A stretch of 64,000 nt of DNA. Source: Haloarcula halophila (GTDB taxonomy: Archaea; Halobacteriota; Halobacteria; Halobacteriales; Haloarculaceae). The DNA lies in NCBI RefSeq assembly GCF_029278565.1, contig NZ_CP119561.1:248001-312000 (forward strand), in the 5' to 3' direction. Positions 10,119 to 63,730 of this stretch are shown piece after piece. Under the pieces are notes generated by a model that was not told where the DNA came from, did no database searches, and saw nothing but the letters and a program-made list of their open reading frames with translations. Made by a program: the position numbers and the translations under genes. Position 1 is the first letter of the stretch. Each line of letters starts with the position of its first letter.

Positions 10119-10167
10119 CCAGTCACCGGCGATCGAATACAGCATTACATAACTCAGGGATCCCCGG

Positions 10168-10557: not shown

Positions 10558-10643
10558 TGCCCTCTCAATCGGGAGCTCGTATGTCACGCGGCTTCACGTC
10601 TGCTGTCGACGCTGAACTGTTTCATCTTGATACAGCGCGGAAA

Positions 10644-10710
10644 CCCCGCCCTTTCCGTGAGTGACAAGTGTTCCGACACCTGTCGGAACCGAGGAACAAA
10701 CAGGGCGGGG
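10644..10710. repeat. Nested inverted repeats left of the tnpB element
   Basis: An outer pair, CCCCGCCCT (10644-10652) and AGGGCGGGG (10702-10710), encloses a perfect dyad GTTCCGACA-CC-TGTCGGAAC (10670-10689). Read on the minus strand it resembles end sequences I associate with haloarchaeal IS1341-type elements, so it may be the left end of the tnpB element or a relic of a second element in opposite orientation. Confidence 0.55.
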
Positions 10711-41206: not shown

Positions 41207-42097
41207 CTAGTCAAGCCGCCGGATTTTCTCTGCGAACTCCGCTTTAGATATCCCCGTAGTGTCGGTCAACTCTGGAAAGCCGGCTCGTTCAACTGCTTGC
41301 TCCACAAATTCTATCCAGAGGTCTTGGTGCTTTTCGGCGTAGAATACCTTCGCTTCATGCGGATACATATCAAGCTCATATTCTGACAAATCGATCATGA
41401 CTTGATGTTTCCGCTCAAGCGTTGTGGCTCCGAACTCACGCAAATGTTTGAACAGGACGTTCTTCCGACGAACGGTCAGGAGACGCTTTGATTCGTTAAT
41501 ATACTCGTTGACCCACTCTCGCCAGTCGTAGGTCTCGGGTTCGATCTCGGTTTTTGTTTCGGGCATCGAAAAGTCGGTGTTGATACGGCGTAGGTAGAAC
41601 TGTACCAGTGCCACAGCAGTCCGGTGATTCCCGTTGGGAAGAGCGTGCTTGAGAATCAGATTCGATGCGAGGCGACCAGCGACATCTGTTGCCGTCCCCT
41701 CCCACGATGTCTCATCAAACGCTTCGGGGAGGGCGTCAATGTCGATGTTCTTGTAGGCCTCCACAGGCGTCCCCTCTTCTTCCTCGTTCTGTGAGAGGAG
41801 CGCCCGATAGATCTCCAGAAGCCGTGCGACAATCGTTCCGTTGTCTTCAGTCATGTCCGCGAGAGCGTCACTAAGGTCAAGTTCGATCTCGCTCACTGCA
41901 CCGCCGCCGACCCGAGATGTGTAGACACCGTAGAACTCTGCATCAAGTTCGTATTCCATGACTTTCACGGCTACATTCCCATCGTAGTCGACGATTTGTG
42001 ACACAAGATTCTCGGGGTCTGGATTGACGAAAGCGAGGGAGAACTGCTTGTCTGCAGGGTGGTGGTAGTGGACGTGCCCCATCTTGCTATCGGACAA
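41207..42097 (-). CDS. Fic/Doc-family protein (probable toxin)
   Basis: The 296-residue protein contains the Doc-type core HALPNGNHRTAVALVQFYLR at residues 151-170, with the catalytic H151 and the N-G-N-x-R phosphate loop (the second glycine of the Fic loop is H158 here). Known Fic/Doc enzymes add AMP or phosphate to targets such as EF-Tu. The N-terminal 110 residues and the C-terminal HTH-like end (FPELTDTTGISKAEFAEKIR) are extra. No adjacent same-strand antitoxin is present. The module is bounded by repeats F and G. Confidence 0.8.
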   Translation of the reverse strand: MSDSKMGHVHYHHPADKQFSLAFVNPDPENLVSQIVDYDGNVAVKVMEYELDAEFYGVYTSRVGGGAVSEIELDLSDALADMTEDNGTIVARLLEIYRALLSQNEEEEGTPVEAYKNIDIDALPEAFDETSWEGTATDVAGRLASNLILKHALPNGNHRTAVALVQFYLRRINTDFSMPETKTEIEPETYDWREWVNEYINESKRLLTVRRKNVLFKHLREFGATTLERKHQVMIDLSEYELDMYPHEAKVFYAEKHQDLWIEFVEQAVERAGFPELTDTTGISKAEFAEKIRRLD

Positions 42098-44685: not shown

Positions 44686-44726
44686 AGGGAAAGTATGAAG
44701 ATACCATAATTATATATTCAGACAAC

Positions 44727-47700
44727 GTGACCACAGTTTCTAACCTTCGAGATGTCCTCGCTAACTTTCTTGAGGAACTCGAAGATGAATTCGACGACCC
44801 CCACGAAATCGAGCGAATCCTCAACGGTGATCGAAACATCACCAGGAGGGATATTGGGGCCGAACCCGAAACGTGGACAGAAGATATCCTCATCAACCCA
44901 GTCCTGAATGCAGTCGGTCTTCATAAATCTCCTGGGCGACCGACCTCACAGCGTAAAACCCCGGATTTCAAGCTTGAGGAACAGAACGGCGACCAGACCC
45001 TCGAAATTGTCGGGGAGAACAAATCTCTGAACAAGATCGAGGATGCTGAAGATGAGCTTGTAGACGACTATCTGTCCAACATCTCCTTCCCGAACGACGG
45101 AATCGCTACTGATGGGCTCGACTGGGTTGTTTACCGCACTGAACGTGGTGGTGACTTCTTCGAGCACGAAGCTGTCCGACATCACAGCTTCAGAGATGCC
45201 CTCCGGCAGTTAGCACGCAATGAGAACATCATCAGCCAGCAAGCGCTCCCAGACTCTGACATCGATATTGACAACGAGCTGGAAGCGTTCGCGCTGACAT
45301 TCCAACCCGACCATCTTGTTCCGCTCCTCACGAAAACAGCACCCACGGAGTTCCGTGACCAGCGAAAACGAGATGTCGATGACTTCTTCGAGATTTATAT
45401 CGAAGTACTGTTTGGTGAGTCAGACGAGCACAATTACGATACGTGCCTTCGAAACGATATTGACGCGCCTGACGGCGCTTCGAGGAAGGACAAGGATGTG
45501 TTCGCGGTCACACTCGTGAACCGTCTGATGTTCATTCGATTCCTTGAGGAGCGAGGCGTTCTCGAGGAAGGGTTCCTGCACGAGCGTGTCGAAAACTACA
45601 GCGAGGGCATCCCAACTTCTCTCTACGAAACAACTATCAAACCCCTATTTTATGATCTGTTCAACGAACCCCGTGAAGACCGTGAGCTCCACGGCGACTG
45701 GTACGATGAAATCCCGTATCTGAACGGTGGACTGTTCCGTCAAAATCTCAGGCAAGAAGACGACTACGACGTTCGGAACACTTCAATGGTGCTCGTCATC
45801 GACAAACTGATTGAGGGCAACCATGAGATGGACCTCGAAATCGATCCCGCGATTCTGGGAAGCGTTTTCGAAATGACCATCAACCACATTAGCGAGGCGG
45901 AGGACCGACAAAAGGAGACTGGCGCCTACTACACGCCCAACGACGTTACACACCTGATTAACTCCCAAGCCGTTGACGGTGAGGTCAAGGAAACTATCAT
46001 CGAATCGTTTGCAGAAACGCTGGACGAGGAGGTAGAGTCTACGTTCCGACGGCAGGCTGAAGCAGAGTCTCTGGAGGAAATTCTGGCACACATTGAGGAA
46101 GGCGAGGGCTGGTACGGAAGCACCCAGGGTCTTGACAAAGCTCGTGAGGCGGTTCTTAATCTGACTGTTCTTGATCCTGCATGTGGCTCTGGTCACTTCT
46201 TGACGGCTGCGATGGAACAACTGCATCAAGTACTCCAGTCCATTCACCGTGGTCAGCACGGCGGTGATGACCCGTCACCTGAAGAGAAGTACCAGCAGAA
46301 ACGCGATATTGCGTTGAACTCCATCTATGGCGTCGATGTTGACCGTGTTGCCACCGAGATTGCCAAACTGCGAACATGGCTGAAAATTTTGGAGGGGAAC
46401 GACTGGGAGGAGAGCTATGGCCGTCTCCCCAACATTGATGTGAATATCCTCGAGGGGAACTCACTGATTGGCCTGCCGACTGTTGGGTACGGTGCTACAA
46501 CGCTGAATGAGTATAGCGACCGAATGGAAGAAATCCTCACCCAGCGGAAAGAATACAAGCAGGAAAACGAAGGATCGAAAACAGCAATCGACGATCTTCG
46601 AGACGACCTTCGAGATGATCTCAACAAGGAGTATATCGACCGGTTAACCCAAACTGTCGAGAGTGAAATCCGAGATTCAGAGGTCCTGTACGAGCTTGCA
46701 GATGAAATTTCTCCTGTAGAACTACGACAGTACATCGACACAGTATCGATCAAGCGTACTGACAAAGAGAAGTTCACTGATACGCAAATAGCGGATCTCG
46801 AGGATGCTGGGTTCGATGTCCATCATATGCAAAAGAGCGGGAAGATGGATATTGTGAACCACATTGATAGTCTAACTGATAGGAAGAACCGCAACGGGAT
46901 TTCCAGTCAGGCTGAAGCTGCCGAGCAAATCCTTGAGGCGTTGATTGAGTTTGCCGAGAAAGACCAGTTCTATTACAACAAAGTTGAGCGTCGCCCGCTC
47001 CACTCCGATTTAGAGCGTATAGAGGGCAGGCCATTCCATTGGACTGCAGAGTTCCCGGAGGCCCGCAAGGAAGACGAGAACGGGAACTACGATATGGTGT
47101 TCGACATTGTCGTTGGAAACCCACCGTATGGGGACATTCTCTCTAACAATGCGAAGTATCTAGTTAGTGCGTATGAGACGGGCGGAATCAACGATATCGC
47201 TGCACAGTTCGTAGAGCGTGAACTACAGCTACTGAAACTCGGCGGGCACTTCGGGAACATCACAACGCTTCGCATTGCCTACGATCAGCGCGAAGAACCT
47301 GCACGAAAACATCTCACGCGCCGGTTGGAGAAAACACGGATGGCGTGTTTTGCACACCGCCCATCTCGAATTTTTGAGGGTGCACACGTGAAGCCAGCTA
47401 TCATCACTGGAAAGCTAACCGGAGAGCACGACCCGGACATCTACACAAGTCGGTATATCCGGTTCACCACCGAGAATCGAAACGAGACGCTGTCAAATAT
47501 CAGCTACGCGAAGGCGAACGGGCTTGCTCTGGGGGACAAGATTGGTGATGGTCAGAACCTGTCTATCCCGAAGCTTGGCCACGATACTGCGAGAAGTGCG
47601 CTTGAGAAGTTGAAAGAGGCCAGTGACCGAACGTTCTCGGACGCACTTCAAGATAACGAGACAGATTACTTGATGTGGCGTCGTCGTGGTGCCCTGTACT

Positions 47701-48179
47701 GGATTAACCCATTGCTGGTGAATTTGTACGAGGAACAAGGCAAGACCACTCCAACAAGTATGTACCGGATGTACTTCTCGTCGGATCTTGAACGGCGTAT
47801 GAGTTTCATCACGCTCCAGTCTTCACTCTACTACTGGTACTGGATGGTGTACAAGAACGGGCGCAACATTGACTGGTGGGAAATCGAACCGTTCCCCTTC
47901 CCAGATCAAGAAACACTTGAAGCGAATAGGGAAGACATCATTGAGGTAAGCGAGGAGCTATGGGAGGCGATGGAATATCGGTTCGTCGGGAAAGCTCGGA
48001 CTGTGATTGAGAACGCAGCGGAGCTCAAACCGATTGTTGATCGCGTGGACGACTTGATTGGCCCAATGTATGGGCTGGCTGAGGACGAGATAGAGTATAT
48101 GAAAAACTTCGACGCTGAGTATGGTCGGGAGCCGGAGGATATCGACTCGGAGACGTTGGAGTCGTACGCGGACGACTGA
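44727..48179 (+). CDS. Type IIG-like restriction enzyme: nuclease fused to Eco57I-type adenine methylase
   Basis: The 1150-residue protein (GTG start; no later start is usable) begins with a PD-(D/E)xK-like nuclease: D80 (KTPDFKL) and E97-N-K99 (EIVGENK). A helical region leads to the methylase, with motif I LDPACGSGHFL near residue 480 and motif IV NPPY near 798 (DIVVGNPPYGDI). About 300 residues of helical insert lie between them, and a target-recognition-like region occupies 850-1090. This matches single-chain enzymes that methylate N6-adenine and cut nearby. BREX PglX is an alternative, but no other BREX gene is present. The gene is AT-richer than most of the window. Confidence 0.8.
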   Translation: MTTVSNLRDVLANFLEELEDEFDDPHEIERILNGDRNITRRDIGAEPETWTEDILINPVLNAVGLHKSPGRPTSQRKTPDFKLEEQNGDQTLEIVGENKSLNKIEDAEDELVDDYLSNISFPNDGIATDGLDWVVYRTERGGDFFEHEAVRHHSFRDALRQLARNENIISQQALPDSDIDIDNELEAFALTFQPDHLVPLLTKTAPTEFRDQRKRDVDDFFEIYIEVLFGESDEHNYDTCLRNDIDAPDGASRKDKDVFAVTLVNRLMFIRFLEERGVLEEGFLHERVENYSEGIPTSLYETTIKPLFYDLFNEPREDRELHGDWYDEIPYLNGGLFRQNLRQEDDYDVRNTSMVLVIDKLIEGNHEMDLEIDPAILGSVFEMTINHISEAEDRQKETGAYYTPNDVTHLINSQAVDGEVKETIIESFAETLDEEVESTFRRQAEAESLEEILAHIEEGEGWYGSTQGLDKAREAVLNLTVLDPACGSGHFLTAAMEQLHQVLQSIHRGQHGGDDPSPEEKYQQKRDIALNSIYGVDVDRVATEIAKLRTWLKILEGNDWEESYGRLPNIDVNILEGNSLIGLPTVGYGATTLNEYSDRMEEILTQRKEYKQENEGSKTAIDDLRDDLRDDLNKEYIDRLTQTVESEIRDSEVLYELADEISPVELRQYIDTVSIKRTDKEKFTDTQIADLEDAGFDVHHMQKSGKMDIVNHIDSLTDRKNRNGISSQAEAAEQILEALIEFAEKDQFYYNKVERRPLHSDLERIEGRPFHWTAEFPEARKEDENGNYDMVFDIVVGNPPYGDILSNNAKYLVSAYETGGINDIAAQFVERELQLLKLGGHFGNITTLRIAYDQREEPARKHLTRRLEKTRMACFAHRPSRIFEGAHVKPAIITGKLTGEHDPDIYTSRYIRFTTENRNETLSNISYAKANGLALGDKIGDGQNLSIPKLGHDTARSALEKLKEASDRTFSDALQDNETDYLMWRRRGALYWINPLLVNLYEEQGKTTPTSMYRMYFSSDLERRMSFITLQSSLYYWYWMVYKNGRNIDWWEIEPFPFPDQETLEANREDIIEVSEELWEAMEYRFVGKARTVIENAAELKPIVDRVDDLIGPMYGLAEDEIEYMKNFDAEYGREPEDIDSETLESYADD

Positions 48180-48221
48180 CCAAACGCTGATTTTCACCAC
48201 TCCTGTATGAACCTATAGTAC

Positions 48222-48806
48222 ATGGACACGCCTGTCGGAACGGAAGGAGACGAATTTCGAGGTCTTCAGATAGTCAATGTTGTCGCTTCGGGCGTGTTAG
48301 GGGCTGGTGAAATCGATACAGACGTACTGGGTGCTGAACTTTCGGTTGAAAAAACCGTGCTTCCTGGCCGAGTGTATCTCAAGCCGGAGGAGCAATCTCC
48401 GGTAGCGATGGTGTTTCGATCAGGGTCGTACACCGTTGCAGGCGCTTCGTCTTGGGGTGAGGTTCTGGACATTGTCCGCTGGCTGTTCGAGACTCTAAGC
48501 TCAATTGATGTTGGAATAAATCGGGACGAGATGCTGGAGTCTGTATCACTGAAATATCTGGTTGTAACTGGTGATTTTAATTCTAGTCTGAATTTGGCTG
48601 CTGTAGTAGTATCTCTCGGAATGGAACAATCAGAGTATGAACCGGAACAATTCCCTGCGGTAATCCACAATCCAGAGGATATCGATTGTACTGTGTTGCT
48701 ATTCTCTAACGGAAAGGTCACTATCACCGGTGTTCACAATGTTCAAGACGCCTTTGATGTATTCGAGCATATTGAAAACGTTCTCACAGATGGTGCGCTT
48801 ATTTGA
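48222..48806 (+). CDS. Divergent TATA-box-binding-protein (TBP) homologue in a defence island
   Basis: The 194-residue protein has the two-repeat TBP layout. Repeat 1 (about 16-95) has LQIVNVVASGVLG, AMVFRSGSYTVAGASSW and a final helix; repeat 2 (about 108-192) has GMEQSEYEPEQFPAVI, LLFSNGKVTITGVHNVQDAF. Of the four DNA-intercalating phenylalanines, F65, F144 and F161 remain and one is L47. The asparagine of the second repeat (normally QNIVAS) is a tyrosine (LKYLVVT), and one threonine of the TGAKS motif is lost in repeat 1. It lies 42 bases after the nuclease-methylase gene. Plasmid-borne TBPs are known in haloarchaea, but this one is unusually divergent. Confidence 0.8.
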   Translation: MDTPVGTEGDEFRGLQIVNVVASGVLGAGEIDTDVLGAELSVEKTVLPGRVYLKPEEQSPVAMVFRSGSYTVAGASSWGEVLDIVRWLFETLSSIDVGINRDEMLESVSLKYLVVTGDFNSSLNLAAVVVSLGMEQSEYEPEQFPAVIHNPEDIDCTVLLFSNGKVTITGVHNVQDAFDVFEHIENVLTDGALI

Positions 48807-48954: not shown

Positions 48955-50328
48955 TCAACTTTCCTCGACAATCATATCACGAACTGCTTCCAATCCTGTT
49001 GATTCAAGTGTGCCAGCGCTCATTAGGCTCAGCTGATGAACCTGTATTCCTTCGACAGAGAAGGTCTTGATGGATGAACTGTCACCAATACCAAGTAACG
49101 CCGTTGGCGGTGTCTGCTCCAAGCTAGTGTCAATAAAGTCCATCAGATATCCGAGGAAGCGCTGTATGCCTGATATACCCAGTCGATCTAAGTTTTGGAA
49201 TTTTGCATCGGCCAGCCACCTGATTTCGCCATTGAGAACAAACACAAAATCAGGCCGCCCACTCTCTCGTTTTCCAAAAGCATCTTCATTTGCTACATAT
49301 CGACTATGAGAGCTCACACTTGTATCGTAATATAACACTGCGTCAGCTTCCTCAAATACGAACTGGGAGGCTGCACTCCGGTCACGATTCGGGGTCCAGG
49401 AACCATACTCATTTTCAAGAATTTCCAACACCCTATGCAGACACCAGATCTCGAATACTTCGTAAATTGGTTTGATTGCTGTAGCAAAATTTTCGAAGGG
49501 GTCAAGCTGTGCACGTTGATGGAGATATGCCTCCCAGAGGTCCACAATCTCCATTATTACTCCGGATGATTGACCTCGGATTTTAGCGAGGACAGTGGGA
49601 TCTCTGAGGGCAGGACTAGCATCACTGTTTACAACATCTTCTGGAACAGCCGTATTTAAAAAGTTGATATGGTGCTGGAGTTGTTTTGGAATTTTTTCCG
49701 GTAAATGTGCATAGTTCTCAATCAAATGATCGAGGTGAGCTGCCATTTGACTATGAAACTCGTATAGTAAATGGTTGGCAGGTGTATCAAACGTAAATTT
49801 AGTTTCACGTGAAACAAGCATATGCGAGCCTCTTGCCCGTTCTTTAATCACCCCCTGGAGGTCCGGAGGTCCCTCAAATTCGAACCCACGGGACGACTTT
49901 CGCCGTATCTGGACGGGTAGCCGCCCTGCAAGTAGTTCTTCCGTATAGAATAAGAGTGTTTGACTGTAGCGAGGGTATGCAACTTTGCCTTCGACAATTA
50001 AGTCTGGTTGTTCTGGTAAGATAGCATCTGCTATCGGTTTTTTGAATAGGTGGACAAAGCTAGCAACCTCATTTACCATCTTCTCATATTGTTCGGTAGT
50101 AACTTTTTCTGGGGTGACAGAAACCAAGTTATTGTAGTTACCCACCCAAGCCCCGGGGCGGAACTCTTCACTTCCAACAATGCGGGGAGAATTGTTTGAC
50201 GAGTTGACTGCCAGCTCAACAGCATCAACGTAGGTTTTAAAATTGCCCCACTGAGCTTTATTCAAATCAAGATCTTCTTGGGTATAGCGTCCTCTCGTAG
50301 CTACTTCTTTGTAGGCGTTTGAGTTCAC
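48955..50328 (-). CDS. McrC/DUF2357-like nuclease subunit
   Basis: The 457-residue protein has a long helical N-terminal part and a C-terminal PD-(D/E)xK site: D360 (GRPDFVFVLNGEIR), D374 and K376 (WLADAKF). The preceding WCLHRVLEILENEYGSW is typical of the McrC/DUF2357 group. McrC proteins cut DNA when activated by an McrB ring bound to modified DNA. The start overlaps the McrB-like gene stop (ATGA), so the two subunits are made together. D374 replaces the more common glutamate, which is allowed in this fold. AT-rich. Confidence 0.8.
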   Translation of the reverse strand: MNSNAYKEVATRGRYTQEDLDLNKAQWGNFKTYVDAVELAVNSSNNSPRIVGSEEFRPGAWVGNYNNLVSVTPEKVTTEQYEKMVNEVASFVHLFKKPIADAILPEQPDLIVEGKVAYPRYSQTLLFYTEELLAGRLPVQIRRKSSRGFEFEGPPDLQGVIKERARGSHMLVSRETKFTFDTPANHLLYEFHSQMAAHLDHLIENYAHLPEKIPKQLQHHINFLNTAVPEDVVNSDASPALRDPTVLAKIRGQSSGVIMEIVDLWEAYLHQRAQLDPFENFATAIKPIYEVFEIWCLHRVLEILENEYGSWTPNRDRSAASQFVFEEADAVLYYDTSVSSHSRYVANEDAFGKRESGRPDFVFVLNGEIRWLADAKFQNLDRLGISGIQRFLGYLMDFIDTSLEQTPPTALLGIGDSSSIKTFSVEGIQVHQLSLMSAGTLESTGLEAVRDMIVEES

Positions 50329-51539
50329 GTGAACCCACTTGATGCTTGCATATCCCGCAACTGCGCAGCGACACGCTCTAGTCCCAGTGCACTAGCTGCT
50401 CGTACTGTACAATCGAAGTTCTCTGTTACCTCACCCTCCGTTCCGATTGTTTCAGCCTGTCGGAGCTCCGGCATGACAATCTCAAATTGCGGAACAATAT
50501 AGGAAATAACTGCTTGTTCAACAGTCTCGCCGCTCACCTCATCAGGAAACATAAGTGCATATACCACAAGGAACTTTACCGCATCAATGACCATTGCTTG
50601 GCCAATTTCAAGGAGGTCGTTATTGGCCGCAATAAAACAAAATTCAATCAACACATCAATAAAATCGCGTTCACCTTTGTAGTGGTCAAGATCTTCAAAG
50701 AGAGACTCAAACTGTTCCTCAATCAGTTCCTCGCTAGCATAGCTTGGCTCGATAGGGTAGGCGTCCCTTCCAAACGGGCCCTGCTCAGTTTGTGCCTCGG
50801 CCGAAAGTGGGAAAGTCTCAAAGATAGTTCGGGAGTATGAAAGACTCTCAATAACGCTCTCTTTGATAATCTCGTTCTTGAGAGATTCATAGTCAGGTAC
50901 TGCTGGAATATCTATTTCTTCTTCGTCATTTGACTTAGATGAACTGGTCTTCAGGAGGGTTCCGACCTCTACAAAAGCAAATCGTCGTCTAAATGCATAG
51001 CCGAGTTCAAATAGCTGGGCTCGGTCGTAAGTGTTCATTGTCGCGAGAATACGGAAGGAGTGCGGGAGATAGGTTGATTCATCTCCATATTGGAGCCTTT
51101 CGGTATCACGATAATCCGGGTCAAGCAGGGTGAATACTTCTCCGAAGGACTGATCTAGGTTCGCCCGATTCAATTCGTCGATAATCAACCAGGCCGGCCG
51201 TCCATCCGAGCGGAGGCCCTGCTGGCACAATTTAGCGGTTTCTGCGAGTGGTCCCGCCTGTGTCGTGAAGCCACCGTCACTATCAGGTGTGTATCCCCCG
51301 ATAAGGTCATACCGGGTAAGTTCCGCGTGAGCAGTTATGAGGTCAAAGGAATTCCCACCACAAACCCATCGTGAGAGTAGCCGTGCAGCCCGGGTTTTTC
51401 CGGTTCCAGGCGGACCTTGGAAAACCACGTTTTTCCCCGATACAAGATGTGCTAATGATTCCCGGTAAATCTCGGGCCGCTCTTGATCGACGAGACTGGC
51501 GAATGCTTTCGAAAAAATCGTCTCCTCAGTAGACATCAA
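50325..51539 (-). CDS. McrB-like AAA+ NTPase subunit
   Basis: The 404-residue protein has Walker A GPPGTGKT at 42-49, a Walker B IIDELNRANLDQSFGEVFTL near 120, and the sensor segment LATMNTYDRAQLFELGYAFR followed by RRRFAFVEV, which is the McrB/MoxR-like signature (McrB has MNTxDRS). The last 150 residues are helical. There is no N-terminal DNA-binding domain; that role may fall to the product of 51649-52161 upstream. Such rings hydrolyse GTP or ATP to translocate DNA and drive the McrC nuclease. Confidence 0.85.
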   Translation of the reverse strand: MMSTEETIFSKAFASLVDQERPEIYRESLAHLVSGKNVVFQGPPGTGKTRAARLLSRWVCGGNSFDLITAHAELTRYDLIGGYTPDSDGGFTTQAGPLAETAKLCQQGLRSDGRPAWLIIDELNRANLDQSFGEVFTLLDPDYRDTERLQYGDESTYLPHSFRILATMNTYDRAQLFELGYAFRRRFAFVEVGTLLKTSSSKSNDEEEIDIPAVPDYESLKNEIIKESVIESLSYSRTIFETFPLSAEAQTEQGPFGRDAYPIEPSYASEELIEEQFESLFEDLDHYKGERDFIDVLIEFCFIAANNDLLEIGQAMVIDAVKFLVVYALMFPDEVSGETVEQAVISYIVPQFEIVMPELRQAETIGTEGEVTENFDCTVRAASALGLERVAAQLRDMQASSGFT

Positions 51540-51648
51540 ACCGATAACCTCCCAGACATTTGCTTGAATAAAGCCGTTGCAAAGATGTTACATGTTTCTG
51601 TTTATGAAGAGCCATAGTTTCGTTTGTTAAGATATTATCTATTACCAT

Positions 51649-52161
51649 TTATTTAAATTTGACAATTCCACTCGCGCTATCTCCGGCCCGTTGGTCAAAT
51701 GCAATATTAAACGGGTCTAACCTCTCTGGAGAGTTATTATACACCATCCGAGTATGAAACCTTCCTTGTGAGTCACGGACGAAATACAATATGGGAACAT
51801 GATCTGCAGTCATATTCTCGTGTTCATCATCAAAAAGTTCGTCAGCACTAGGTATAAACCCATGTTCTGTTTCCCAAAGCGGATAATCGGTTGAATTGCC
51901 AGGTAATTGCCACTCGTTTCGACCGTTATTGTAGTCGATTTCGATTTCGGCCTTGGTTTCCTCGTACTGTTGGACAGGCGCCAATTGGACGCGGATCGTT
52001 CCATCCGGACCACCATCCCACTCGTTGTGATTGAAAAATTCGGCAATGTCTTCGGGATCACCTGGTAAGTAGATTCTTGCGTGAGCACCGCCGCCGCCAG
52101 GATTCCCCCAATATCCGAGTTTGGCTTTGAGATCAGTCTCCGTTAGCCGCCGCCAGTACAT
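51649..52161 (-). CDS. Accessory protein of the McrBC-like operon, possible DNA-reading subunit
   Basis: From the ATG at 52161 the product has 170 residues, beginning MYWRRLTETDLKAKLGYWGN and continuing with a beta-rich domain (ARIYLPGDPEDIAEFFNHNE). An ATG at 52236 would add 25 residues with little similarity in character. No family is recognised. Its position first in the operon and the missing N-terminal domain of the McrB-like protein suggest that it recognises modified DNA. A 109-bp gap separates it from the McrB-like gene, so the link is contextual. Confidence 0.6.
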   Translation of the reverse strand: MYWRRLTETDLKAKLGYWGNPGGGGAHARIYLPGDPEDIAEFFNHNEWDGGPDGTIRVQLAPVQQYEETKAEIEIDYNNGRNEWQLPGNSTDYPLWETEHGFIPSADELFDDEHENMTADHVPILYFVRDSQGRFHTRMVYNNSPERLDPFNIAFDQRAGDSASGIVKFK

Positions 52162-52392
52162 TGCCTCAGCCGAGCAGACAGTCACAAATGAAGTTCTATT
52201 TTGACGTAATAAAAGATATTTTAAGCTCATTATCATTTTCGACGGAGAAGAGGAAATGATAGTAGAAGGATATCGGGTTTGGTTATCTTCCGATGAGATA
52301 CGCTCAATCTGCTCATTTACAAGAAGGAAGTCCTTCCTACGGTGCCGTTAGAAGTCTGATAACTTATATACTCGACCGACACCGCAGAAAGT

Positions 52393-53199
52393 ATGCCCAA
52401 AATCGGCATCTATGCCCGTGTCTCGACAACAGACCAAGACCCGCAACGACAGCTCGACGAACTCCGGGAGTTTGCCGAAGACAGGTATGATGAGCCAGAA
52501 ATTCACGCCTACGCGGATCTCATCAGCGGGACCGAAACTGACCGCGGTGAAGAGTACCAGCGACTCCGAGCAGATATCAAAAACGGGGCCCTGGACATCG
52601 TCGTTGTCCACGAACTCTCACGTCTTTCTCGACTCGGTGGCGGCGAAATCCACGAGTTCCTGGAGTTCTGTCTCAGTCACGAAACTAGCGTTCAGGATAT
52701 GGAAGTCGGGCTGGAAATTAGCCTTGAGGATGACCTCGTCGACAGAGCAGTGAGTCAGCTTATCGCCGGTGTGATGGGTGACCTCGCCCGGGTTGAGCAC
52801 AAACAGAAGCTCCGCCGGATTCAATCAGGTATTGACGCTGCAAAAGAGGCCGGGCGATGGACTGGCCGGCCGCCAGCCGGGTTTGATGTCGAAGACGGCT
52901 ATCTCCAGGTCAACGCCGACCAGTTCCTTACTATTCGTCGCGCGCTCGAACGCGTTGAGCAAGGCTATACCTATGCTGAAGCAGCTGATGGAACGCCTGT
53001 TGCTGAATCAACGTTGAGGGCCCTCGAAGACGACCGTCGCGACCTCTATTTCTACGCTGAAGCTGAAGATGAGCGGCTCCAAGCTGCCGCTCAAGAGCTT
53101 GAACCACTTGGGAAACCGGATATTCCCGATGACACAGACCTCCCGGAGCAGGACATCAGGACTATCGTTCGCGATGAAATCCACCGACACCAGCAATAG
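52393..53199 (+). CDS. Serine recombinase (resolvase/invertase family)
   Basis: The 268-residue protein has a complete resolvase catalytic domain: KIGIYARVSTTDQDPQRQLD (nucleophile S11 in RVST), VVVHELSRLSRLGGGEIHEF with the catalytic arginines, and the long helix GVMGDLARVEHKQKLRRIQS. The C-terminal 110 residues are an HTH-like and helical region unlike large integrases. A TATA box (ttatata, 52364-52370) sits 26 bases before the ATG. It may resolve plasmid dimers or mobilise the defence island at whose right edge it lies. Confidence 0.85.
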   Translation: MPKIGIYARVSTTDQDPQRQLDELREFAEDRYDEPEIHAYADLISGTETDRGEEYQRLRADIKNGALDIVVVHELSRLSRLGGGEIHEFLEFCLSHETSVQDMEVGLEISLEDDLVDRAVSQLIAGVMGDLARVEHKQKLRRIQSGIDAAKEAGRWTGRPPAGFDVEDGYLQVNADQFLTIRRALERVEQGYTYAEAADGTPVAESTLRALEDDRRDLYFYAEAEDERLQAAAQELEPLGKPDIPDDTDLPEQDIRTIVRDEIHRHQQ

Positions 53200-53268
53200 G
53201 TCTCATTCAAGGGGTTTCGTACTCTCTGCTCAATGTCGCCCCGACAGTTATTACTCAATATATGAATT

Positions 53269-53862
53269 ATGAATCGTATGTCGAAAGCTGCGGGCGATCC
53301 GGAACGGGCTATAAATGGTCTCATGTCGATCGCACAGCTGCTGGAAGAACCACGGCTGGCCCGTCTCTACACGTTCGTCCTTCGCGATGGAGAGGCCACT
53401 ATCGACGATATCGTTGCGACGCTGGATATGCCTCGGACGACGGCGTATTCGGATATGGGGACACTCGTCGACCTCGGTGTAGTCACCCGAGACGAGACTC
53501 AGAAGACGCACACGTATTCTGCAGTCCCGATTACGCTTACTGCGGATCTCGACGGTGACGAATACACTGTCACTCCAACCCTTATCGAGGCTGTTGGCCG
53601 CTCACCGCAGGACCAGGATCTCGATCTTCTCTTGGAAAAATATGGGCTTGGGAAGCTTGCTGCTGCCCTCATGTATGCAATCCCGTATGTCGGTGGTGGG
53701 ATGTCTGAGCGGGTCGCTGCCCGCGAGCTCGATCTCCAATACGCCTTCGCGGTTGCCGTGTTGCATGCACTCCGAGATGTCGTTCAGGATATGGAATCCG
53801 CTGACCCCTACTTCGACGATATCCGAAACGCCCGTGATCAGGAACCGTCAGCGGAGGATTGA
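53269..53862 (+). CDS. DUF7437-type winged-helix antitoxin/regulator
   Basis: The 197-residue product (alternative ATG at 53278) has a winged helix (LARLYTFVLRDGEATIDDIV, ATLDMPRTTAYSDMGTLVDL) and a helical C-terminus. It is followed after nine bases by a PIN-domain gene, the usual haloarchaeal partner. The TATA-like caatatat lies close upstream. It probably represses the pair; since the toxin is truncated it may now be an orphan. Confidence 0.75.
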   Translation: MNRMSKAAGDPERAINGLMSIAQLLEEPRLARLYTFVLRDGEATIDDIVATLDMPRTTAYSDMGTLVDLGVVTRDETQKTHTYSAVPITLTADLDGDEYTVTPTLIEAVGRSPQDQDLDLLLEKYGLGKLAAALMYAIPYVGGGMSERVAARELDLQYAFAVAVLHALRDVVQDMESADPYFDDIRNARDQEPSAED

Positions 53863-53871
53863 TCGACAGAC

Positions 53872-54174
53872 ATGAGTGAGTTATTCGACCCTTTTGACGA
53901 GTCTGTGGCGTGGGTCGCAGACACGGGATTCTTCGTTGCTTGTGGCCGACAGCGGAATAACAAATATACGGCGCTCGAACGCTTCGCGGACCGGAACGAA
54001 CTCACGTTTGTGATTCCACAGTGTGTCTACGAAGAACTTGGCGGAGCCCCGGATTGCAGCACACCGGGGCAGACACCTATCAACAGCGCACGGGACGCTG
54101 GCTGGGTCAGAGTAGCTGATGAACCTGAGTATACGAACAGCACTGACTCTCGAGTGATGGATTATGTAAGGTAG
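53872..54174 (+). pseudogene. PIN-domain toxin gene, truncated at the 3' end
   Basis: The 100-residue frame starts MSELFDPFDESVAWVADTGF with the first PIN aspartate (VADTGFFVACG) and the conserved glutamate (VYEELGG), then ends abruptly at SRVMDYVR. Full-length relatives continue for another 60 or so residues that carry the remaining acidic site. The break is next to the origin repeats, suggesting deletion or recombination there. Activity is unlikely. Confidence 0.7.
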
Positions 54175-54301
54175 AGTCGGAGTCCACTGGCAAACCTCGG
54201 GGCTTGATCCCGAGGCGGTTGACTAGCGGTTCTGGAACTGACTGCAGTGATCGAGTTCTCTCGAATACATAAGGAATAGATGACAAAGGCGAAGAGACAC
54301 A

Positions 54302-54600
54302 CACCAGATTTTGAGTAAGGATTCTATGAGGTGTGTGGCAAAGGAGTGTTCAATTGAATTTAGAGGGGATTTCTTACTCCAAACTATGTGTGTTTCTTTA
54401 GTCTAGTTATCCTAGTAAGTAGTAGTGTAGTAGAAGCAGATACAACAAATCAACTAGGACGAACTCAACTGCTCCTAATCCGCGTCTCACCCTTCCCGAC
54501 TTTCTTACTCCAAACTAGGTGTGTGTCTGTCCTCTCCTTACTCCAAACTAGGTGTGTGTAGACCCGGTTTGGTGTAAGGAGAAAACCCTCAATATTAGAC
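54302..54600. other. Candidate replication origin: repeats upstream of orc1/cdc6
   Basis: Three direct copies of CTTACTCCAAACTAGGTGTG lie at 54373-54392 (one change), 54504-54523 and 54537-54556, with an inverted copy GGTTTGGTGTAAGGAG at 54566-54581 (one change) and a weaker inverted one around 54309-54321. An AT-rich block lies between the outer and inner groups (54395-54480) and another at 54590-54655. Repeats of this kind next to an orc1/cdc6 gene are origin recognition boxes in haloarchaea. The repeat differs from the common TTTCC...GGAAA box and presumably matches the adjacent Orc1. Confidence 0.8.
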
Positions 54601-54679
54601 TTTCAAACGCTATGAAGGAGTTATTACTCATAACTTGGTACCAAATATTTATTTCACTGGCTGTCGTCTGGCCTTAATA

Positions 54680-55888
54680 ATGGATAGCAACGAGGGGTCA
54701 GAGACGGTTCACAGTGTCTTTGAGAGTGTTGATGAGGGGGGTTGTGGGATCTTCGAGCAACGGGAAATTCTTCAAATCGACTATGTCCCCAGTGAGAAGC
54801 GAATAGTCGGTCGCGATGAGCAGATCGAGAAGGTTGCTGGTGAAATCGGACCAATCGTCGTTGGGCAGCCGCCAAATTCTATCATCATCTACGGAAAAAC
54901 GGGCTGTGGAAAGTCACTCGTCGCAAAGCACGTTTCCAAAATCGCTCAAGAAGAAGCCGAGAACCGAGATGTGAGACTTGCTACGGGGTATGTTAATTGC
55001 CAGCAGGCGAAGGGAAATTCCGACGCTCTGAGCAAGTACGGTCGTGAGATTAACCCACCAGAAAGTGGCATTAAGTTCCCAGCACGGGGGATTTCGGAGA
55101 ACGAGTATTTTGAGCGGGTCTGGTCGGTCCTGAACGAGTTTTACGACGCCGCCATCATCGTTCTAGATGAAGTTGATAAGCTCAATAACGACGACTTGTT
55201 GATGGCACTTTCCCGAGCAGGGGAGGATGGAAGTGTTGATGTTCCGATTGGGGTGATTGCGGTGTCGAACAAAATCAATTACCGGGACAATATGAGTGAA
55301 CGCACAAAGAGCTCGTTCGGACACAACGAGTTCATCTTTGAACCCTATGATGCAGCTCAAATCCGAGAAATCCTTCAGAATCGGACTGATGCCTTTGCTA
55401 AGGGAGTTCTCGATGACGGGGTGATTCCTCGTGCTGCCGCACTGAGTGCAAAGGAACACGGTGACGCACGAAAGGCAATGCGCCTTCTCCGGTACGCTGG
55501 TGACCAAGCGAACAAAGAGAATGCCGACCGGGTGAAAGAATCTCACCTCTCTGACGCTCGGGCTTCAGCGGAAGTTGATCGACTGCTTGAACTCATTTCG
55601 GGGCTCCCGCCCCACAGCAAGCACGTCCTGGTAGCGCTCGCGAACCTCACTAAAAACCAACCGGACCGGGAATGGTTCCGGACGATGCGAATACGCGAGA
55701 CGTATCTTGATGTTTGCGATCAGATCGGGACCGACCCGCTATCAGCTGAGCGGACGCGGCAACTACTCAACGAACTTTGCTTCTTAGAGATTGCCGGGAG
55801 TCGACGAGGTACCGGGGAGGGGAAGGGGCATTACAGTCAGTACACTCTCCTTTGGGACGCAGATGTTGTCCTCACTCTCGACAGCTGA
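54680..55888 (+). CDS. Orc1/Cdc6-family replication initiator
   Basis: The ATG at 54680 has a TATA element (aatattta, 54644-54651) about 31 bases upstream and gives 402 residues. It has Walker A IIIYGKTGCGKSLVAKHVSK, Walker B AAIIVLDEVDKLNNDDLL, an arginine-finger region and a C-terminal winged helix (LLELISGLPPHSKHVLVALA onward). Length and layout fit a complete initiator. It probably binds the repeats just upstream and defines a replicon with them. An earlier in-frame start at 54635 lies on the promoter. Confidence 0.9.
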   Translation: MDSNEGSETVHSVFESVDEGGCGIFEQREILQIDYVPSEKRIVGRDEQIEKVAGEIGPIVVGQPPNSIIIYGKTGCGKSLVAKHVSKIAQEEAENRDVRLATGYVNCQQAKGNSDALSKYGREINPPESGIKFPARGISENEYFERVWSVLNEFYDAAIIVLDEVDKLNNDDLLMALSRAGEDGSVDVPIGVIAVSNKINYRDNMSERTKSSFGHNEFIFEPYDAAQIREILQNRTDAFAKGVLDDGVIPRAAALSAKEHGDARKAMRLLRYAGDQANKENADRVKESHLSDARASAEVDRLLELISGLPPHSKHVLVALANLTKNQPDREWFRTMRIRETYLDVCDQIGTDPLSAERTRQLLNELCFLEIAGSRRGTGEGKGHYSQYTLLWDADVVLTLDS

Positions 55889-55910
55889 CGCTATCTGTTT
55901 CTGTGCTTGA

Positions 55911-56129
55911 ACCCTCCAAGAGCAGCGGATCTACGATATCGACGAGCGGGCGTACGTCAGGAAAGCCGACATCAACGAGGACGTGAAAGAGACGCGATTG
56001 CAGGGATTAAAAGACCGACTCGCGGCCACTGAAAGCGAGGAGGCGGATGTCCTCCGCAGCGAAATCGAGGACCTGGAAGACCGAATCGACGAACTCACGA
56101 GCTTTCGAACAGGTTCCGAGGTACAATAG
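55911..56129 (+). pseudogene. C-terminal fragment of a lost gene (coiled-coil)
   Basis: The frame 55911-56129 reads EQRIYDIDERAYVRKADINE, then a coiled-coil (RLAATESEEADVLRSEIEDL, EDRIDELTSFRTGSEVQ) and a stop, with no start codon and a stop just before it. The codon use is typical of real haloarchaeal genes. It is the 3' end of a truncated gene I cannot name. It fills most of the 314-bp gap after orc1/cdc6. Confidence 0.55.
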
Positions 56130-56202
56130 CTGAGTATCGTTGTCGGGTGACTCTCGCAGCAGATCCGGCGAAGAGGTCTTCCTGGGATGACCACGAGTCC
56201 GA

Positions 56203-56871
56203 TCAGTCTAGACGGGTGAGCGAGCCATAGAGTTCTTCGTTTTGAATGTGAGTACAGAACTGTGCGCAGAGCCGACAGCAGTCCGCGGCATCGGTGAAGG
56301 TCCGGACACTGGCGTCCCAGCGCGCGTGGACGGCGCCAAGCATCGCACTTCGAACCGATGGTTCGGTCGCGACCATAACCCGTCGCGCACGCGCGGGCGG
56401 CGTTGCATCGGCTGCCGGTCCCTGCATTCCAACTGTCGACAGAATATCCTCGAGGACGCTCCCGATCTCGATCCCGACACCGAGGTTGTCGCCGACCTGT
56501 GGAGCGATGAAGATCGTTGCATTACTCGCTTGCGCAAAGGCGATACTCTGTGTGGCGGCATCCATCTCGTCGAGCGGAATCCCGACGTCGATTGCGAGAA
56601 AAGCATTAAATCCGCGGTCGCGGAGGCAGTCCCGCGTCTCCTGCAGGAGCCGCAACACCTCGTCTTCGGCGTACTCGCCGCTGGTCTTGTCCCACGTCGC
56701 AAACGACGGGGCATCGGTTTCGACATCGGCGTCCGCCGGCAACAGTGCGTCGACGTCGAATGTCCGGTACGGTCCCATCAGATAGACGAGAAACTGTTCC
56801 CGCCGGACTGGAGCGAGCGCATCTGAATCACCAGCGGCACGGGGGAGATTGTCGATAATCCGTTGCCGCAT
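56203..56871 (-). CDS. DUF7509-like protein, nucleoside-deoxyribosyltransferase-like fold
   Basis: The 222-residue product has FLVYLMGPYRTFDVD (28-42), LLQETRDCLRDRGFNAFLAI, and ATIFIAPQVGDNLGVGIEIG, an order resembling nucleoside 2-deoxyribosyltransferase-like proteins (GP.R start; G.G.EIG end with the catalytic-type glutamate). A C-terminal cysteine- and histidine-containing tail (CCRLCAQFCTH) is extra. It is divergent from an ArsR-like gene at 56984, with a TATA-like catataaatat at 56898-56907. The pair recurs in haloarchaea; an NAD- or nucleoside-consuming toxin is possible but unproven. Confidence 0.6.
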   Translation of the reverse strand: MRQRIIDNLPRAAGDSDALAPVRREQFLVYLMGPYRTFDVDALLPADADVETDAPSFATWDKTSGEYAEDEVLRLLQETRDCLRDRGFNAFLAIDVGIPLDEMDAATQSIAFAQASNATIFIAPQVGDNLGVGIEIGSVLEDILSTVGMQGPAADATPPARARRVMVATEPSVRSAMLGAVHARWDASVRTFTDAADCCRLCAQFCTHIQNEELYGSLTRLD

Positions 56872-56983
56872 TCGGCTCGTCGGTTCGGAACGGTAGCATA
56901 TAAATATCGGTGTTTTCAGGAATATTCTAGTCGAGAACGACTAAGTACGTGGCGTCCCAACGTAGGACCCGAGGCACCCGCAA

Positions 56984-57376
56984 ATGTCCGAAACCGATCG
57001 CCATCCAATAGAGGGGGTTCGTCAGCCGGACCCGCCGCTTCCCGAGGATAGCGGGCTGACGCTTGAGGAGTATCTCGCTATGCAACAGGCGATCGGCCAC
57101 CCGACGCGGTTCCGGATCCTCCGCACGCTCGTCGCCAACGACGAACTGAGTGCTGCCGACCTCAAGACTGCGGTCGATGTTGAATCCCACAATTTCCACT
57201 ACCATCTCGACGAACTCGTCGATGTCGGGCTCGTCGACAAGCGCCAGCGACGGACCGCTGACAGCCAGGGTTTTTATACATACTATCGGCCGACGGCAAT
57301 GGGCCGCGGTATTCTTGAGCACGGTGTCGAAGAGCTGATAAGCCGTGAACGGGAGTTTAATGACGCTTATTCGTAG
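56984..57376 (+). CDS. ArsR-type winged-helix regulator
   Basis: The 130-residue protein has a clear ArsR-like core: QAIGHPTRFRILRTLVANDE, LSAADLKTAVDVESHNFHYH and LDELVDVGLVDKRQRR. It lacks metal-binding cysteines. It is encoded divergently from the DUF7509-like gene with about 110 bases between the starts, so it may repress both. The next feature, an insertion sequence, begins 11 bases after its stop. Confidence 0.8.
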   Translation: MSETDRHPIEGVRQPDPPLPEDSGLTLEEYLAMQQAIGHPTRFRILRTLVANDELSAADLKTAVDVESHNFHYHLDELVDVGLVDKRQRRTADSQGFYTYYRPTAMGRGILEHGVEELISREREFNDAYS

Positions 57377-57387
57377 GCTGTCGTAGG

Positions 57388-58457
57388 GGGGGTGGGATAA
57401 AATCACCCTCATAGCGCTAAGTTCGGACTGCTCGGATCACCTCCTCGTTCGTAATTCGTGATCGCTACGACAAGCCGAAGACACACCGATAAGAACACGT
57501 GTGCCTTCGCCATGGCGCGGTCTCGGGCGGGAACGCGCCCGAGACCGCCCTCCTTGCAGACGTTGATCGTGTTCTCGACCTGTGACCTGTCAGCGTAGGT
57601 CTCGTTGAGCTGTGTCTGCGACACACCGATGTCGTCGAAGTGGTTCGTGACGCGGTCTTCAACCCGGTACTCGATATCGAGGGGATCGTCCGTGTTCCGG
57701 TGATTGTACGGAGCCACTGGCACGACCTGCTCCTCCAGCAGCAGGTCGTGCCAGTTCAAGATGTCGAACGCTGAAGCACCGATCATCCACAGCGGTTTCT
57801 CGACGGCGAGCGCGTCACGCGTGACGCGCATCGCCGTCTCCTCATCAACCTGCTCGCCGTCTGTGAACGCTGCAGCAACCGGGACATTGTTCGCAGTCGT
57901 GACCAGTGTACAGCCGTAGCCAAAGTAGTTCTCATCGGTTGTTGGATCGTAGTTCCACGCCCCGTCGGAGTCATCTCGGGGTGTCGCCCGTACTTCCGTC
58001 GAGTCGATCCGGAACGTCGGGGAGAGCAGGCCGCGCCGGGCGGCCTGCTCGACCAGATGATTAAAAATCGCCTCAGCAGTCATGCTAAAGTCGCTTCTGA
58101 AGCGTTTGATCGGGTCACGCGACGGGGCATGTGGAAAGCCACACTGCCGCCAGACGGTTTCGTCTTGGAGGGCACGATAGACCGCTCGTTGACCGTAGAT
58201 ATCGTTGTGGAAGCAGTACAGATGGGTCAGAAACAGTCCATACGGGTCGAAATCCGGTGTTCGCCCCCGAGCCGCGGGGGCGAACCCCTCGAATTGCTCA
58301 AGGAACGACGAATCAAGATGCTCACCTAACAGTGTGATCTCCGTCTCCAAGAGATTGAAGACGTTCTCAACCGTATCTACTGGTGGCAGGGCTTGTGTCG
58401 ACATTCTATTCCGCTAGCCCTGCCGTCTAACCCTGAGAACGTTTCTATCCCACCCCC
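57388..58457 (-). mobile_element. IS5-like insertion sequence (about 1.07 kb)
   Basis: The terminal inverted repeats begin GGGGGTGGGATA at 57388-57399 and its complement at 58446-58457, with imperfect similarity continuing inward (TCA). One transposase gene fills the element. I could not define a target duplication. The element lies between an ArsR-like gene and the sugar transporter operon and breaks neither. Confidence 0.75.
57409..58404 (-). CDS. IS5-like DDE transposase
   Basis: The 331-residue protein has the N-terminal DUF772-like region (DPYGLFLTHLYCFHNDIYGQ, RAVYRALQDETVWRQCGFPH) and DDE candidates: D in FRIDSTEVRATPRDD, D near PLWMIGASAFDILNW and E in YADRSQVENTINVCKE. Length and layout are normal, with no frameshift, so the element may be active. 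It has haloarchaeal composition. Confidence 0.85.
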   Translation of the reverse strand: MSTQALPPVDTVENVFNLLETEITLLGEHLDSSFLEQFEGFAPAARGRTPDFDPYGLFLTHLYCFHNDIYGQRAVYRALQDETVWRQCGFPHAPSRDPIKRFRSDFSMTAEAIFNHLVEQAARRGLLSPTFRIDSTEVRATPRDDSDGAWNYDPTTDENYFGYGCTLVTTANNVPVAAAFTDGEQVDEETAMRVTRDALAVEKPLWMIGASAFDILNWHDLLLEEQVVPVAPYNHRNTDDPLDIEYRVEDRVTNHFDDIGVSQTQLNETYADRSQVENTINVCKEGGLGRVPARDRAMAKAHVFLSVCLRLVVAITNYERGGDPSSPNLAL

Positions 58458-58653
58458 TTGGATAGTCAAAAGTGATAGCGGCTGCTAATACTCGTCAATA
58501 GGTCGACCCATGCTCGTCGAAATCGAGTACGACTTTTATGAGAGTACTTTCTAAAAGACCTCTGCAGCGATGGAGCGCGCAGAACACAATTGCTGTGATC
58601 AAGAGTATTTCAGAAGTGGCTCGGAGAATAGCAAGACAGCAGACTGTCCACTG

Positions 58654-59307
58654 TCAAGTATCTGCAGGCTCTCTGACCGGTGTTGTTGATGGCGACTGCC
58701 TGGACTGTCCCGCTACCGCCTCCACAACCGTAATTTGAAGCGCGAACGTGGAACCAGCGAACAGTAGGACGAACGCAACAGTTAACAGCGCAAGCAATGC
58801 GAAGAGCACAATCGAAAGTATGCCAGTAGTCAGTGCGGGAGTGGGATGGCGAACCAGCCAGCCAAGACCGAATCGAAGCGCTTCGATGGGGCTATCGCCA
58901 TGGGCTAACCGGACGAACGTCGGCACCAACGCCAACGCGACGTATAACGCCGTATACCCCGTGAGGAGGGCGGCCCCCTCGCCAACCAGCGATCCCTCTC
59001 GCAAAGCTGTGACACCGTAGGTGACCGCGACGGCACCGAAGGCGACGGGGACGCCACTGAACAGCAATGCAGCAACGCCGTTCATTCGCAGCGTGTGACA
59101 GACGCGTGATCGATCAATCCGATTGCGATCACTCCGGAGGTCCAGAATCGCCGCGTAGGCCCCAAGTGTGGCTGGGCCGATCGTCACGAGCGGTAGCGAC
59201 ACAAAAAACCAGACAACACTGATGACCACAAGAGACAGGCTATTCCGGTAGACGAACCCAGGAACGCTCGCCACCGCACGTCGGAACGACTCCTGATCTC
59301 CAGCCAT
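58654..59307 (-). CDS. DUF624/YesL-like membrane protein of the sugar transport operon
   Basis: The 217-residue protein has five or six membrane segments and begins FRRAVASVPGFVYRNSLSLV, then VVWFFVSLPLVTIGPATLGA, the DUF624 (YesL) pattern. Such proteins are often encoded with carbohydrate ABC transporters, role unknown. Its start is four bases after the permease stop, so it is the last gene of the operon. Confidence 0.75.
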   Translation of the reverse strand: MAGDQESFRRAVASVPGFVYRNSLSLVVISVVWFFVSLPLVTIGPATLGAYAAILDLRSDRNRIDRSRVCHTLRMNGVAALLFSGVPVAFGAVAVTYGVTALREGSLVGEGAALLTGYTALYVALALVPTFVRLAHGDSPIEALRFGLGWLVRHPTPALTTGILSIVLFALLALLTVAFVLLFAGSTFALQITVVEAVAGQSRQSPSTTPVREPADT

Positions 59308-59310
59308 AAG

Positions 59311-60174
59311 CTATCCCGTCCCTGCCTGCATCTGCACGCTAGAGATGAGCTTGTCCTGGAACAGTAGGAACACGATGAACAGCGGCAGCGAGATGAGCGC
59401 CAGGTTCGCCATCAAGCGGTTAGATTCCTGAGCGTAGACGCTCTGCAGTGTGGTCGCGCCCACGGGCAGGGTGTACGCCGCCTCGTTCTGCAGAACGATC
59501 AGCGGCCAGAGATACTGGTTCCAGCTCCAGACGAACACGAACAGCGCCAGGGCCGTGATCACCGGCAGCGACAGCGGAAGGATGATTTGGGCGTAGATGC
59601 GGAACGTCGAGAAGCCGTCCAGGCGAGCTGACTCCTCAAGATCCTCGGGGATGTCCCGGAAGAACTGCACTAGCAGGAACACCCCGAGTGGCCCGGCGAC
59701 GAACGGAAAAACAAGGGCCTGGTAGCTGTTGACCCACCCTAGGCGATTGATCAGCGTGAATAGCGGGATAACGTTGATCTGGGGCGGAACCATGAATGAC
59801 GCGATGATGATCCCCAGAATGGCCTTGCGTCCCGGCCACTCTAGGCGCGTCAGCGAGAACGCCACCATGGAGTCGACCACGACGATGAGAGCGGTCGTGG
59901 TGCTGGCGATGATGAACGTGTTGAGGATCCAGCGTCCGAGCAGGTCGCTCGTGGTGATCGTCTCGATCCAGAACGCGAGCGTCACCCGGGTGGGGACCCA
60001 CTGGAAGCCGAACAGTTGTGTCGAGGGGGTCACTGACAGCGCGAACATCCGGAGCAGAGGGATGAACCACAGCAGCGCCAGGCCGTACAGGACCACGTAG
60101 ACGCCGACCTCGTAGAGGGTCTGAACGTCCACCCGGACGTCGATCAGGTCTTTGGCCGTGTCGGCAAACGACAT
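59311..60174 (-). CDS. Carbohydrate ABC transporter permease (MalG/UgpE type)
   Basis: The 287-residue protein has six membrane helices and the EAA loop EDLEESARLDGFSTFRIYAQ, then IILPLSLPVI, which contacts the ATPase. The family pairs with a MalF/UgpA-type permease, encoded just upstream with an ATGA overlap. The size is normal. It forms half of the membrane channel for the sugar taken up by this system. Confidence 0.92.
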   Translation of the reverse strand: MSFADTAKDLIDVRVDVQTLYEVGVYVVLYGLALLWFIPLLRMFALSVTPSTQLFGFQWVPTRVTLAFWIETITTSDLLGRWILNTFIIASTTTALIVVVDSMVAFSLTRLEWPGRKAILGIIIASFMVPPQINVIPLFTLINRLGWVNSYQALVFPFVAGPLGVFLLVQFFRDIPEDLEESARLDGFSTFRIYAQIILPLSLPVITALALFVFVWSWNQYLWPLIVLQNEAAYTLPVGATTLQSVYAQESNRLMANLALISLPLFIVFLLFQDKLISSVQMQAGTG

Positions 60175-61085: not shown

Positions 61086-61086
61086 G

Positions 61087-62496: not shown

Positions 62497-62537
62497 TGGT
62501 CGTGAGTCGCTGGTGTATTTTTGTATGGTGCTGTTCG

Positions 62538-63680: not shown

Positions 63681-63730
63681 CACCAGCCACTGTGGACCCC
63701 TTCGTATTAATTTTTTCCCCACAGCTGTGA

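Follow-up and report, generated by a model that had tools for sequence, protein, structure and literature searches.

Divergent TATA-binding proteins (TBPs) of salt-loving archaea are encoded almost only beside restriction, BREX and DISARM genes. Multiple TBPs are a known trait of haloarchaea and are usually explained as sigma-factor-like environmental regulators; the divergent part of this expansion, including the orphan gene tbpC of Halobacterium NRC-1, is almost wholly defence-linked. The genomic association is very strong, and it suggests that these mobile systems bring along a transcription-start factor of their own. No report of a link between haloarchaeal TBPs and defence was found in the literature searched, which included few subscription papers.

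The TBP gene of the window and its neighbours

The stretch of DNA analysed, hereafter the window, comprises 64,000 nucleotides and corresponds to positions 248001–312000 of contig C3 in a haloarchaeal genome of four contigs. An open reading frame with an ATG start, located at 48222–48806 on the forward strand, encodes a divergent defence-linked TBP of 194 amino acids. The Pfam family PF00352 (TBP) covers two repeats of the protein (whole-protein E=8.7e-26), the AlphaFold2 model represents a complete TBP saddle (pLDDT 91.3), and the top 44 Foldseek matches of this model are TBPs throughout, the Pyrococcus TBP from the TBP–TFB–DNA complex among them; comparison of the model with 1ais_A gave TM-scores of 0.77/0.82. 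Identity to the chromosomal TBP of the same organism is 33–38%.

Repeat 1 (approximately 48264–48512, forward strand) is eroded, since it scores 28.8 bits against 64.2 bits for the well-kept repeat 2 (approximately 48546–48791, forward strand) when the repeats are scored singly. Alignment of 40 canonical TBPs with 72 divergent ones shows that the first intercalating phenylalanine of repeat 1 is lost from the window protein through a three-residue gap in the loop, and the second, F65, is retained; in repeat 2, F144 and F161 are retained, and the asparagine is replaced by Y112. The columns of canonical F42/F59/F135/F152 thus read -/F/F/F, namely, three of four, and the full set of four intercalating phenylalanines and the paired asparagines of the DNA-binding face is absent from the protein. 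The loop EYEPEQFP (48633–48656, forward strand), which forms the stirrup of repeat 2 and comprises TFB contacts and an intercalating phenylalanine, is intact in the window protein and invariant in A1; the role of these positions in TFB contact is assigned from known TBP–TFIIB/TFB structures.

The window protein is a genuine but altered TBP homologue. The features listed for it in an earlier sequence-only reading, namely, both TBP repeats, an eroded repeat 1, three of the four intercalating phenylalanines and the replacement of a key asparagine in repeat 2, were all recovered, and the structure prediction and comparison with archaeal TBP proposed there gave the saddle described above. With three of four phenylalanines and tyrosine in place of asparagine, canonical TATA binding is not to be assumed, and the loss of the repeat-2 asparagine and one stirrup phenylalanine may make DNA binding weak.

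The gene upstream, in tandem with the TBP gene, encodes a type IIG restriction enzyme-methyltransferase of 1150 amino acids (44727–48179, forward strand), with matches to Eco57I (PF07669, 8e-22) and the PADLOC model REase_MTase_IIG (2e-49). The gap between the stop of this gene and the TBP gene, read directly, occupies 48180–48221 of the forward strand and is exactly the 42 bp stated earlier. Just 5′ of the IIG gene, the start codon of which is uncertain, a TATA-like stretch, AATTATATATT (44708–44718, forward strand), was recognized from sequence only. No TBP gene is located up to 1.5 kb from the genes of 13 orthologues of the IIG enzyme; for eight of these, the check extended to approximately 5 kb. 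TBP is therefore not an obligate subunit of the enzyme, and a stable pairing of the two was rejected.

Two genes on the reverse strand, 50325–51539 and 48955–50328, are convergent with the TBP gene and had been read as a McrBC-like operon facing it. The former encodes a McrB-like AAA_5 ATPase (AAA_5, 2.1e-20; NCBIfam McrB, 2.1e-22, below the cut-off), and this half of the description stands; the 457-amino-acid protein encoded in the McrC position gave no family match in Pfam, PADLOC or NCBIfam, so the other half does not. The operon was rejected as a part of the module, as its homologues never accompany TBP elsewhere as a pair. Among the immediate neighbours in the window, no TPR-OB/cold-shock partner or effector was found with Pfam and PADLOC. 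Further upstream, at 41207–42097 on the reverse strand, a 296-amino-acid protein with a sub-threshold Fic-like match is encoded, a 53% relative of which was found near a DISARM–TBP locus (L052, 13653–14543).

Contig C3 (363 kb) represents a circular plasmid of approximately 298 kb, assembled with approximately 65 kb of redundant ends that differ by single-base indels; positions 49865–64000 of the window equal C3:1–14111. The same plasmid contains a BREX locus with the gene order pglX–TBP–pglZ–brxL. Given the redundant ends, the second copy of this BREX–TBP locus and a split pglX are probably assembly artefacts; the presence of two BREX copies in the plasmid was accordingly rejected, and the duplicate was removed from the final statistic.

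Linkage of divergent TBPs to defence genes

The nearest relatives of the window protein in 391 haloarchaeal genomes comprise one at 59% identity and others at 46–36%. Their neighbourhoods contain genes of methylases, HsdR/HsdM/HsdS, DISARM-type helicases or BREX systems, mostly with gaps of 0–100 bp. Because this set had been picked by similarity to the window protein, the linkage was re-tested on 51 genomes drawn evenly across the class and chosen without regard to defence; methylase loci in the same genomes were defined by Pfam N6_Mtase and Eco57I matches (n=140). With short fragments left out, identity to the chromosomal TBP was bimodal, with 79 TBPs at 62% or more (canonical-like) and 26 at 45% or less (divergent). 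At a distance of up to 8 kb, N6-MTase genes accompany 24/26 divergent TBPs versus 0/79 canonical-like TBPs; the two exceptions are located in BREX-like islands, beside BrxC/PglY and PglZ. Within 5 kb, the counts are 19/26 versus 0/79, at a chance level of approximately 1.3%. Without the window gene itself and the one duplicate that arose from assembly, 22/24 divergent TBPs are linked versus 0/79 canonical-like TBPs (p=1.8e-20). The check proposed in the sequence-only reading, namely, whether homologues of the window protein recur beside Eco57I-type methylases and stay apart from ordinary plasmid TBPs, is thus strongly positive; the McrBC-like pair, a neighbour also to be surveyed there, does not recur.

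A phmmer search over all loci showed an R-M gene near almost all TBPs of 47% identity or less, and none of the seed R-M genes up to 5 kb away from haloarchaeal TBPs of at least 59% identity. On one contig with a non-haloarchaeal label, that of the gut methanogen Candidatus Methanomethylophilus sp. 1R26 (L126), a methylase gene is located 4.5 kb from the gene of a TBP which is 59% identical to haloarchaeal TBP; the label or the binning may be wrong. The neighbourhood tests cover Halobacteria; TBPs of other classes, also listed by a phylum-wide search, lie outside them.

The partners of divergent TBPs are type I and type IIG R-M, BREX and DISARM systems. A defence gene is located no more than 300 bp away in 46 of approximately 65 divergent TBP entries that are not identical to each other; of the 46, 33 are arranged in tandem (12 of these overlapping), nine are divergent and four convergent. 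In the tandem cases, TBP is located downstream of its partner in 27/46 and upstream in 6/46. Only approximately 18% of N6-MTase loci contain a divergent TBP, which indicates that TBP is dispensable for defence operons. A divergent TBP with the EYEPEQFP loop can serve as a sequence marker for finding such operons in haloarchaea.

The linkage is also visible in deposited annotations. Plasmid pNRC200 of Halobacterium NRC-1 contains genes of a methylase split by an insertion element, a helicase-related protein and a TBP with a 4-bp overlap; Halobacterium DL1 contains genes of HsdR, a small ORF and TbpC, in this order; pHLAC01 contains genes of a TaqI_C-type methylase, a helicase and TBP; in two plasmids, pglX of BREX-5 adjoins a divergently transcribed TBP gene. 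At the pNRC200 locus (L201, 103993–120496), a DISARM-like operon ends with VNG_RS11040, and the element that splits its methylase gene is ISH27.

Several loci have particular arrangements. In the genome that encodes the nearest homologue of the window protein, the gene of a type IIG-like methylase is located between two TBP genes (L039, 9525–13787); in the product of the second one (191 amino acids), repeat 1 is not recognised by Pfam. Two different divergent TBPs are encoded within one DISARM or type I operon in L069 (9929–14165), L087, L167 and L067/L083. In L040 and L042 (approximately 8273–10673), the TBP gene is located near a gene of XamI-type restriction endonuclease, and an ORF of approximately 150 amino acids on the opposite strand overlaps its 3′ end.

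Phylogeny, conservation and relation to tbpC

In the maximum-likelihood tree, a branch with 95/95 support (94% of bootstraps) separates canonical TBPs from all defence-linked TBPs, and the proteins of the window and of pNRC200 are both on the non-canonical side. The phylogenetic comparison with chromosomal and plasmid TBPs, proposed from the sequence, thus places the window protein apart from the canonical ones. The window protein forms a sister pair with its 59% relative (100/100), and in the group containing them (85/89), every member is encoded beside a type IIG-like methylase. Types of defence systems are clustered yet intermixed on the tree, with 15 changes for type I versus 21 with shuffled labels; this intermixing indicates that the module moved between systems. 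Several branches are long, and deep placements are uncertain.

Across the 72 divergent TBPs, the canonical consensus is kept at 31% in repeat 1 and 47% in repeat 2. The EYEPEQFP loop is 95% canonical, and its repeat-1 counterpart 36%; the three positions of TFB/TFIIB contact are 96% canonical, and their mirror positions in repeat 1 are 28% canonical. The phenylalanine pattern Y-Y-F-F was found in 37/72. The dN/dS ratio is 0.06–0.16 in 11 measurable pairs of divergent TBPs, a range that excludes the window gene, for which dS with the nearest relative is saturated. With these values, pseudogene status or relaxed selection of the clade is not supported. Taken with the conservation pattern, dN/dS shows that the proteins are under selection, with the TFB side of the saddle held and its downstream half remodelled; since the EYEPEQFP loop also holds a DNA-intercalating phenylalanine, its conservation cannot be attributed to TFB alone.

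Canonical haloarchaeal paralogues (TbpA, B, D, E, F; tbpX–Z) have the same fold, length and TFB loop as the divergent TBPs, but they share at least 59% identity with the chromosomal TBP, and they are unlinked to defence genes. Loss of the N-terminal phenylalanine pair was reported for a tbpC-like clade of 21 homologues, called non-functional or specialised (Becker et al. 2014, PMC4230888); tbpC in that work also holds one member with a single loss and two members with no loss, and no link of the clade to R-M, BREX or DISARM was drawn there. Most of the divergent TBPs described here share with tbpC-like proteins the loss of this pair and the retention of the C-terminal one. Unlike typical tbpC-like proteins, the window protein keeps one N-terminal phenylalanine (-FFF) and lacks the repeat-2 asparagine, whereas most of the clade has lost both phenylalanines. 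In contrast to tbpC as published, the defence linkage found here holds generally, and purifying selection acts on the genes. The linkage suggests where to look for a role of proteins earlier called possibly non-functional.

The tbpC gene of NRC-1 is VNG5142 (PMC1971269), and it was deletable without an apparent phenotype (PMC2121645). VNG_RS11040 of pNRC200 reads Y/Y/F/F and falls within the divergent clade, from which we infer that it is tbpC. An insertion element interrupts the methylase gene in the operon of VNG_RS11040, which may explain the absence of a deletion phenotype.

Possible role of the defence-linked TBPs

The clade of divergent haloarchaeal TBPs probably travels as an optional defence module, which tunes its own operon via the host TFB. 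Such an accessory-TBP mechanism is plausible, its functional step being proposed from genomic and sequence comparison. The divergent TBP would bind in or close to the promoter region of the defence operon to which it belongs. On a TATA-like box, repeat 2 would contact the BRE-side half and would also dock the host TFB, and the remodelled repeat 1 would bind the other, downstream half, differing in stability or specificity. The protein could thereby set how strongly the defence genes and its own gene are transcribed, and activation is favoured somewhat over autorepression as its net effect. Only 1/26 divergent TBPs has a linked TFB gene within 10 kb; a dedicated TFB partner was rejected on these grounds, and host TFB would be used instead. 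Upstream of the partner operons, the start codons of which are uncertain, no shared non-canonical promoter element was found by eye, and most of them appear to have an ordinary TTTATA-like box near −30. On this inspection by eye, a single non-canonical promoter common to all linked operons was rejected, and dedicated promoter recognition, the direction of regulation and the target promoter are conjectural.

In bacterial R-M systems, C proteins have a helix-turn-helix fold. The accessory TBP might be a counterpart, at archaeal promoters, to C proteins or RptR of such systems. Similar to C proteins and RptR (PMC12255303), the window TBP is a small DNA-binding protein, encoded next to an R-M operon and proposed as a regulator, and its gene has the R-M-adjacent position typical of controllers, with the 42-bp gap and recurring linkage. 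C proteins and RptR, however, are bacterial, of unrelated fold and not paralogues of a general factor, and regulation was shown for them, whereas here it is proposed. By its fold, the window protein does not belong to either family.

It is also conceivable, albeit doubtful, that the divergent TBP acts as a portable basal factor and forms with host TFB a separate initiation complex at defence promoters, similar to a sigma factor for defence. If so, a portable TBP would keep defence genes on in any new host and also under infection by a virus that redirects the host TBP. The testable question raised here is whether mobile defence systems have a general transcription factor of their own.

The systematic loss of the repeat-1 phenylalanine pair (YYFF in 37/72), the ordinary look of the partner promoters and the position of TBP downstream of its partner in 27/46, as feedback would predict, are also consistent with an autorepressor, namely, a half-disabled TBP which binds TFB and promoters poorly and restrains a toxic restriction enzyme, mainly after transfer to a new host. 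This reading is rather unlikely, as TBP also accompanies BREX, DISARM and single-chain IIG enzymes, for which the timing of nuclease and methylase is no issue. Still less likely is a response to viruses, in which the protein would sustain defence transcription when a virus takes over, outcompetes or replaces the host TBP, or would be a decoy or sensor for viral TBPs. Some haloviruses do encode TBPs, and the divergent TBPs retain the TFB-binding loop with changed DNA reading. Viral TBPs, however, are rare, with 11 IMG/VR loci and three phage records, and wide carriage of TBPs by viruses was rejected. Moreover, two of them are themselves linked to R-M genes: in Halorubrum virus HRTV-9 (L199, 31319–35615), TBP follows a type IIG enzyme after 16 bp, and in Haloarcula virus HJTV-2 (L200, 31047–34324), it is near an N4-cytosine methylase and Eco29kI endonuclease. 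They therefore look like copies of the module, not takeover tools.

It is very improbable that the TBP fold was recruited by the restriction machinery to read or bend DNA as one of its subunits. Overlapping genes and tight linkage would fit such a recruitment, and so would the fact that RNase HIII and members of the RNase LS family contain TBP-like domains acting on nucleic acid (PMC3710099) and that TBPs are encoded by the bacterial TOTE and TALON conflict systems (PMC12458937); against it, one clade serves very different enzymes, with types intermixed on the tree, no TBP accompanies the orthologues of the enzyme encoded in the window, and the TFB contacts are specifically retained. Of the three roles suggested in the sequence-only reading, a dedicated transcription factor is favoured over DNA reading by a recruited fold, on the grounds of the conserved TFB-binding loop, purifying selection and IIG orthologues without TBP; the third, a sensor of phage transcription, is less likely. 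The nearest precedent is represented by the TOTE and TALON systems of that 2025 preprint (Aravind 2022, cited there): they are likewise prokaryotic conflict operons with a TBP-family protein, bacterial and containing TPR-cold-shock proteins and effectors, whereas the TBPs described here are archaeal, of normal length, encoded beside R-M, BREX or DISARM genes, and keep the TFB loop. The least probable reading is that of a neutral passenger, in which accessory TBPs and defence genes merely share genomic islands; both are accessory and often plasmid-borne, but canonical-like accessory TBPs (62–77% identity), many of them on plasmids, show no association, and the gaps of 0–50 bp, overlaps and strong purifying selection also argue against it. 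As a full account, it is refuted by the linkage statistics and selection.

Some divergent TBPs have an additional N-terminal part. In L080 (8590–9414, reverse strand) and L161 (9546–10421, forward strand), the TBP gene encodes an N-terminal extension of approximately 85 amino acids with weak matches to PqqD and VpaChn25_0724, which is possibly a fused winged-helix domain.
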